A stretch of DNA of 64,000 bases from Nitrosopumilaceae archaeon (lineage in GTDB: Archaea; Thermoproteota; Nitrososphaeria; Nitrososphaerales; Nitrosopumilaceae): the NCBI GenBank assembly GCA_030041535.1, contig JASHNR010000058.1, positions 1 through 64,000 of the forward strand. Direction: 5' to 3'. The notes beneath the pieces were generated by a model. That model saw only the letters and a list, made by a program, of their open reading frames with translations, had not been told where the DNA came from and did no database searches. A program made the position numbers and the translations under genes. The number at the start of each line of letters is the position of its first letter. The stretch's first letter is position 1. Below are positions 27,116-59,235 of this stretch, one piece after another.

Positions 27116-27212
27116 CGCCGGGAGAGAGATTTGAACTCTCGGACCCTTGCGAGTACGCGCTTTATGGTTTTCATTTCCAGGCGCGCGCCCTACCAGGCTA
27201 GGCGACCCCGGC
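27116..27212 (-). tRNA. tRNA-Ser (anticodon GGA) with a 13-nt intron
   Basis: On the minus strand the sequence folds as a class II tRNA. The acceptor stem is GCCGGGG/TCCCGGC, the D stem GCCT/GGGC and the T arm GAGAG-TTCAAAT-CTCTC; the variable arm pairs ACTC with GGGT around GCAA, and the discriminator is G, as expected for tRNA-Ser. The anticodon stem CGCGC/GCGCG encloses 20 nt, which is a 7-nt loop CTGGAAA plus 13 extra nt at the usual 37/38 position. Anticodon GGA reads UCU and UCC. TGG in the loop can pair with CCA in the intron, giving a bulge-helix-bulge-like splice site. The mature length would be 84 nt. CCA is not encoded. Confidence 0.9.
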
Positions 27213-58511: not shown

Positions 58512-58615
58512 AGCCCGATAGTCTAGTGGCCAAACAATTTTTGGGCTAGGGATTCCAGGCTCTGGATCTTATGAGAGGACACCTGGAGACGGCAGTTCGA
58601 ATCTGCCTCGGGCTA
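58512..58615 (+). tRNA. tRNA-Gln (anticodon CUG) with two predicted introns
   Basis: The acceptor stem AGCCCGA/TCGGGCT, T arm GGCAG-TTCGAAT-CTGCC and discriminator A are clear. The anticodon stem CCAGG/CCTGG encloses 22 nt: a 7-nt loop CTCTGGA plus a 15-nt canonical intron (about 58566-58580) at 37/38. The D region is 16 nt too long. Removing 58534-58549 leaves D stem GTCT/GGAT with loop AGTGGCCAA and a 73-nt tRNA. The 16-nt stretch is flanked by a bulge-helix-bulge: GGCC pairs with GGCT, bulges AAA and AGG, inner hairpin CAA-TTT-TTG. A1-U72 fits archaeal tRNA-Gln. CCA is not encoded. Confidence 0.88.
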
Positions 58616-58635: not shown

Positions 58636-59235
58636 CTATCTAGAGGCCATTGCAATTCTTTCTAGCTCGTTCTTCTTTTTAACAGAAGGTGCGTTCATGT
58701 CATTTGCAGCGGCAAGTATCAAGTGCTCTGCAAGGTTTTCCTCTATTGCCTTTGGATTTGAAAATGTTGCATCCCTTACCCCTTCTGCTATGAACCTAAG
58801 AGCAAGATCAATTCTTCTAAGAGGAGCAACATCTACTGAAACATGGTATACGGTTCCACCATAAACTATTCTTGTTGTATCCTCGTTGGGAGCTGAGTGT
58901 TCTACGGCTCTTATCAAGACTTCAACAGGGTTCTTTCCTGTTTTGAGATGCATAATTTCAAATGCTGTTTTGACTGTATTTATAGCGTGAATCTTTTTTC
59001 CACCCATTCTGCCAGTGTTCTTTGCATATTTTTTTCCAAAATGAGATAGTTTGTTTACAAGTCTCTCAGTTATGTTGACCTCAGCTTTGTTAAATCGCTT
59101 CAGTGCGGAACGTCCAAAGGACATTGGAATTATTTCTTTTTTTAGCGAAATGACATTTTTCAGACCTGGATCTTTAATCTCAATTTTGGAGGTATCCCAC
59201 TTTCTAAAAAGTAAAAGATTCTGTGTTTCAGTCAT
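58636..59235 (-). CDS. rps7: Small ribosomal subunit protein S7 (uS7)
   Basis: S7 nucleates the head of the small subunit. The 199-aa archaeal form has NKLSHFGKKYAKNTGRMGGKK, VLIRAVEHSAPNEDTTRIVYGGTVYHVSVDVAPLRR and ends ERIAMASR. It has an N-terminal archaeal extension of about 40 residues. Last gene of the RpoA-L30e-NusA-S12-S7 operon. Confidence 0.95.
   Translation of the reverse strand: MTETQNLLLFRKWDTSKIEIKDPGLKNVISLKKEIIPMSFGRSALKRFNKAEVNITERLVNKLSHFGKKYAKNTGRMGGKKIHAINTVKTAFEIMHLKTGKNPVEVLIRAVEHSAPNEDTTRIVYGGTVYHVSVDVAPLRRIDLALRFIAEGVRDATFSNPKAIEENLAEHLILAAANDMNAPSVKKKNELERIAMASR

Follow-up and report, generated by a model that had tools for sequence, protein, structure and literature searches.

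The tRNA-Gln(CUG) locus

The window, by which we mean the whole 64,000-nt stretch of DNA analysed (contig C54), is part of a 1.83 Mb genome with a completeness of 99.86%, and its host is a member of Candidatus Nitrosotalea. Within the same genus (g1), the tRNA gene studied here has, in genome G035, letters identical to those of Candidatus Nitrosotalea devanaterra (LN890280.1). In the window, the gene spans a 104-nt precursor that the Rfam tRNA model scores alike in the local and the genome search, skipping 20 nt of the D loop and 18 nt of the anticodon loop. The features discussed below, including the predicted bulge-helix-bulge (BHB), are:

58512..58615 (+): tRNA-Gln(CUG) gene, 104-nt precursor (Rfam RF00005, 43.8 bits; anticodon CTG read from the sequence)
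58528..58531 (+): 5' strand of the central BHB helix, exon GGCC (G18 G19 C20 C20a), pairing with 58544-58547
58532..58534 (+): 5' bulge AAA, predicted cut after 58533 (exon end ...CAA in 22 of 22 insert-free genes)
58534..58549 (+): predicted D-loop intron, 16 nt, tRNA position 21/22 (BHB register, covariation, related genes that lack it exactly)
58535..58543 (+): inner hairpin CAA-TTT-TTG of the D-loop intron (inner 3 bp covary over 62 types)
58544..58547 (+): 3' strand of the central BHB helix, intron GGCT, pairing with GGCC at 58528-58531 with one G-U pair
58548..58550 (+): 3' bulge AGG, predicted cut after 58549 (A as the first base of the bulge in all 69 types)
58566..58580 (+): second intron at the canonical position 37/38, 15 nt, ATCTTATGAGAGGAC (sequence; 73 nt once both introns are removed)

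In the genome search the DNA of the gene matches one place only, and together with the Rfam search this makes it the sole tRNA-Gln(CUG) gene found in its own genome. A convergent cluster on the opposite strand starts 20 bases past the gene end and comprises S7 (58636-59235), S12, a NusA-like factor and a protein resembling L30e whose score falls under the curated cut-off. ARAGORN as run over the 64-kb window called zero tRNA genes, and the list from the whole-window Rfam scan lacks 58512-58615, giving only the other tRNA. At 27116-27212 on the minus strand, the window has a further tRNA gene, which reads as tRNA-Ser(GGA) interrupted by an intron close to its anticodon.

The D-loop insert and its bulge-helix-bulge register

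The initial annotation had proposed 16 extra nucleotides in the D region in addition to a 15-nt intron at 37/38; the former proved exact in sequence and coordinates, and the latter is borne out by the sequence. The insert at 58534-58549 reads ACAATTTTTGGGCTAG, and taking out both introns yields a 73-nt tRNA in which, as had been claimed, a 9-nt D loop and a 4-bp D stem (GTCT/GGAT, with two G-U pairs) are restored. This loop, AGTGGCCAA, is close to the AGCGGTCAA of the genome's own intronless tRNA-Gln(UUG). The proposed BHB is present letter for letter, with GGCC/GGCT as the helix, AAA and AGG as the bulges and CAA/TTG closing a TTT loop. By inspection, each cut site lies in a 3-nt bulge and a 4-bp helix separates the two bulges, the exon pairs just outside the bulges are weak and the D stem sits further out. 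The 37/38 intron has, also by inspection, the relaxed form of the motif, its 3' bulge GACA measuring 4 nt versus 3 in the strict form.

Among 200,000 shuffles of the 16-mer, the 4-bp helix alone arose in 1.5% and the full 4+3 bp in exact register in 0.15%; a chance match as the origin of the pattern is ruled out by these shuffles and, above all, by the related genes described below. Energy-based folding was dropped as a decisive test, since the minimum-free-energy fold of the single precursor picks a competing CCAAA/TTTGG hairpin instead of the BHB (at 37 C -3.1 kcal/mol versus -2.2 for the BHB core, at 25 C -4.4 versus -3.7) and folding the spliced tRNA by itself fails to recover the cloverleaf as well, so that single-sequence folds weigh little either way. 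The gap between the two structures is below 1 kcal/mol, the rival hairpin uses letters that by inspection are absent from many relatives, and the local fold of the precursor has a z of -0.51.

Pairing and covariation in related genes, and genes without the insert

The gene was matched in 88 of 101 genomes, the window's own included, and 79 of these 88 were fetched, from which 74 genes were extracted. From named records, a tRNA-Gln pattern (best 80 of 120 stretches) gave at least 74 genes, some of them UUG isoacceptors. The combined set of 148 genes holds 74 from sampled genomes and 74 from named records, with some genomes occurring in both. Of these, 141 could be parsed, and among the matches listed 119 carry an insert at 21/22 and 22 carry none; the 69 parsed genes from sampled genomes include only one that is insert-free (L100, genome G046).

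These genes bear on the alternative that an enlarged D loop is retained in the mature tRNA and no splicing occurs, a reading with which the folded precursor would agree insofar as it keeps the D stem with the hairpin inside the loop. In the parsed set, however, the insert varies in length from 11 to 50 nt, yet the helix to the exon persists. Long D loops without BHB potential in relatives would, according to the initial annotation, speak against an intron; instead, 116 of the 119 inserts at 21/22 form all four central helix pairs among the matches listed, the exceptions being two 11-nt inserts with three pairs (L138, L144) and a gene with an internal deletion (L072). In 69 of 69 distinct inserts of at least 13 nt (L072 left out), all four pairs are possible. 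Furthermore, every one of the 22 insert-free genes among the matches listed breaks exactly at the proposed splice sites, with a 9-nt loop AGYGGYCAA followed by GGAT, which agrees with the earlier prediction of cuts after the second nucleotide of each bulge.

Exon and intron bases also covary. Over the 69 types, the bases at exon position 20 and at the facing intron position are C-G 39 times, T-A 18 times and T-G 12 times, with C-A at 0 (Fisher p 5e-9, relatedness uncorrected). Genus g1 has T20 with GATC in L066-L068 and C20 with GGCT or GGTT in its other parsed genes, L072 apart. Of the cells for the inner three pairs, taken over 62 types, 87.6% show standard pairing (relatedness uncorrected), against 49.5-63.4% in four slid registers, a control that retains relatedness among types, and a mean of 53% with a maximum of 65.6% in 2000 reshufflings. 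Two unparsed genes (L106, L176) have the insert at 21/22 with four pairs. Taken together, we consider a retained loop very improbable.

A second alternative is that the gene is decaying and that tRNA-Gln(UUG) reads both Gln codons. The UUG isoacceptor is indeed present (L016), the relative G016 has a CUG gene without an anticodon, and G054, a 99% complete genome of the window's own family (f1, which we take to be GTDB's Nitrosopumilaceae), shows no match to the gene in either the 101-genome search or the phylum survey. The gene in the window, however, is the only CUG gene found in its genome, has all stems intact, recurs with 100% identity over 104 nt in G034 and G020 and belongs to a set with compensatory changes, which leaves decay extremely improbable. 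In the G016 gene (L072, G016 C61:7778-7866), which comes from the same genus, a deletion between GGATCT repeats took the anticodon, reflecting either a real loss or an assembly fault.

Because of this comparison with related genes, we read the insert as a BHB intron at 21/22; on the strength of the aligned sequences, 58534-58549 can be regarded as a genuine D-loop BHB intron. It is thus nearly certain that the sole tRNA-Gln(CUG) gene found in this Candidatus Nitrosotalea genome carries a noncanonical D-loop BHB intron.

The splicing endonuclease and a model for intron removal

The genome encodes two tRNA_int_endo proteins, of 179 aa (alpha) and 197 aa (beta). Residues 4-178 of alpha align with chain 3p1z_B (1e-44), presumably from Aeropyrum pernix; alpha keeps the His in GPGIDHAP and the aligned Tyr and Lys, the catalytic residues, and has a further Lys opposite residue 44 of that chain, counted by hand. 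Beta matches endonuclease chains and by inspection lacks the His. In the parts of the literature consulted, lysine K44 of a crenarchaea-specific loop is linked to broad specificity and the D-loop is among the named sites of archaeal BHB motifs (PMC6379350), and Thaumarchaeota are assigned an alpha2-beta2 endonuclease (PMC4090602; PMC3218864). The initial annotation had raised the question of whether the endonuclease is of the broad-specificity heteromeric type; with its two genes, the host enzyme is of the two-subunit type, and its alpha subunit carries the loop lysine tied to broad specificity.

In the precursor, exon G18 G19 C20 C20a would pair with intron GGCT, the two-subunit endonuclease would cut two bases into each 3-nt bulge, and tRNA ligase would join the exons, leaving a D arm whose loop measures 9 nt. 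The canonical 37/38 intron would be removed by the same endonuclease, and compensatory change keeps the D-loop intron in register. The sequence, the comparative boundaries, the covariation and the existence of both endonuclease genes are shown directly; that cutting and joining take place, and the order of the two splicing steps, we infer.

Thirty family genomes (the 28 of genus g11, G049 and G039) were searched for an alpha subunit, and in 29 of them one turned up that has the loop lysine and triad-like patterns, the search pattern itself including the His; G427 gave a weak, beta-like match only. Such alpha subunits occur in genomes both with and without the Gln intron, and by these residues the enzyme appears alike in the two groups.

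Distribution, loss and age of the intron

The phylum survey covered 398 genomes with a fixed-letter pattern allowing 0 to 30 nt at 21/22 and matched 200 of them; as its letters are fixed, a non-match does not equal absence. In family f1, 60 of the 63 genomes surveyed were matched, by eye 35 with the insert and 25 without, and the unmatched G037 and G050 contain the insert (L074, L101). The initial annotation called noncanonical introns rarer in Thaumarchaeota, which is too weak a description here: throughout the sampled family, g11 apart, this gene normally carries the intron, and the consulted part of PMC8450103 already counts 107 noncanonical tRNA introns in Thaumarchaeota among 673 in 217 archaeal genomes.

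This distribution, too, bears on whether the intron has a role of its own, for example in delaying tertiary folding by locking G18 and G19 until the endonuclease acts. Such a role would agree with G18 and G19 being part of the central helix in every one of the 69 types and with the presence of the intron in 32 of 32 matched f1 genomes outside g11. All 25 insert-free genomes, on the other hand, belong to the 28 genomes of g11, three of which keep the insert, and in these 25 the intron is exactly absent and therefore dispensable; its loop also differs among relatives. A role of its own is thus unlikely, and the intron would more plausibly lack a function.

An EndA-alpha gene tree of 29 genomes was built to count losses; its resolution is weak, 11 of its 26 inner branches being well supported. 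It demands three changes of intron state, two of them forced by supported branches, and we therefore infer several losses as likely, with intron gain as a possible alternative on this tree. Within the family the intron is old, and it was probably lost cleanly more than once.

Insert-free named records include Nitrosopumilus salaria BD31 (L172). Within the same order, the insert is likewise missing from G069 (family f10) and from records named Nitrososphaerota or Nitrososphaerales (L140, L160, L177), and five unparsed genes (L105, L108, L109, L110, L137) have a D-arm insert of 16-20 nt at 24/25 with a CAAG/CTTG helix, so that the position is unfixed within the order. Further afield, an insert at the same place is found in records named Caldarchaeum (L151, L176, L180), Calditenuaceae (L153, L166, L202), Brockarchaeota (L169) and Thermoproteus (L193), as well as in two named Bathyarchaeota (L164, L187; 3' ends not located by script), other Bathyarchaeota records having none (L154, L181, L199). 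Shared ancestry of the intron at that depth is possible, the intron letters among these distant lineages differing too much by eye to show it. In Thermoproteales, tRNA introns reportedly move, according to one earlier study cited in PMC3293823.

More speculatively, a single ancestral 21/22 intron might predate the split between Nitrososphaerales and the Caldarchaeum-like lineages, kept by exon-intron coevolution and serving as a maturation gate, in which the BHB helix would lock G18 G19 and the L-shape would form only after cutting. We regard this proposal as doubtful; if true, it would contradict the view that most noncanonical tRNA introns were gained recently.

Relation to known introns

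Introns of this kind are already known in archaea. As far as the consulted parts of the reports go, the archaeal noncanonical BHB introns (PMC8450103; PMC6379350) resemble the one described here in having a BHB outside 37/38, beside a canonical intron, and a two-subunit endonuclease; there is no difference in principle, and ours is one more case, documented family-wide. A CUG-anticodon tRNA of Caldiarchaeum subterraneum, printed as 'Glu[CUG]' in the portion consulted of PMC3293823, likewise has several introns. The D-loop inserts of the Caldarchaeum-named records lie at 21/22 like that of the window but differ from it in their letters and in a GGTCAGA loop motif. In Pyrobaculum and other Thermoproteales, too, a tRNA gene can hold up to three introns and the positions are many (PMC3218864; PMC8450103, sections consulted), but introns are far more numerous there, with 71 in 46 P. 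calidifontis genes, whereas few tRNAs are affected here, as far as seen. The parts of the literature consulted name no D-loop intron of Nitrosotalea tRNA-Gln, and we make no claim to a first report.

What is added is the family-wide series with its covariation, the variant at 24/25 and the genes from which the insert is missing precisely between the cut sites. The group has cultured members, and the states of intron present, intron at 24/25 and intron exactly absent form a natural series in which to study the retention and removal of noncanonical tRNA introns.

Further inserts and a recurrent loop motif

In the window's own genome, tRNA-Arg(CCU) (G000 C31:71966-72023 region, L118) reads with a 19-nt and tRNA-Asp(GUC) (G000 C40:19073-19139 region, L119) with a 32-nt D-loop insert, both near 15/16, and the tRNA-Gln case is therefore probably one of at least three in the genome. 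Removal of the D-loop insert leaves 75 nt in each, and both score under the Rfam cut-off (own genome only); together with the ARAGORN miss, these scores show how such intron-bearing genes escape detection. Another region under the cut-off (G000 C36:58362-58409, L121) can be read as a tRNA-Trp gene whose long intron contains C/D-box-like sequences.

Among the relatives, seven genes from related families (L079, L080, L081, L088, L098, L102, L105) show an additional insert around positions 9-11, which would bring the number of introns to three, and L085 shows a second D-loop insert in a tRNA-Gln gene. The D loop of L074 (G037), AGTCTGGCCAA, is 2 nt longer than those of its relatives, besides containing the D-loop intron.

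The Caldarchaeum-like tRNA-Gln D-loop introns have a common loop motif, TGGYCAGA, the rest of the intron being variable. Among the matches listed, the motif occurs in 10 of the 141 parsed rows (L126, L142, L149, L153, L166, L180, L190, L196, L201, L202), and it is also found in the unparsed L176 and in further rows of the phylum survey. The idea that it mimics a D loop is weakened by genome G115, where a similar CTGGTCAAGA lies in the anticodon introns of two other tRNAs (L329, and L339 by eye). The same scan also hit a normal D loop in a different tRNA (L318) and a site next to a tRNA (L313), which makes the motif unspecific.
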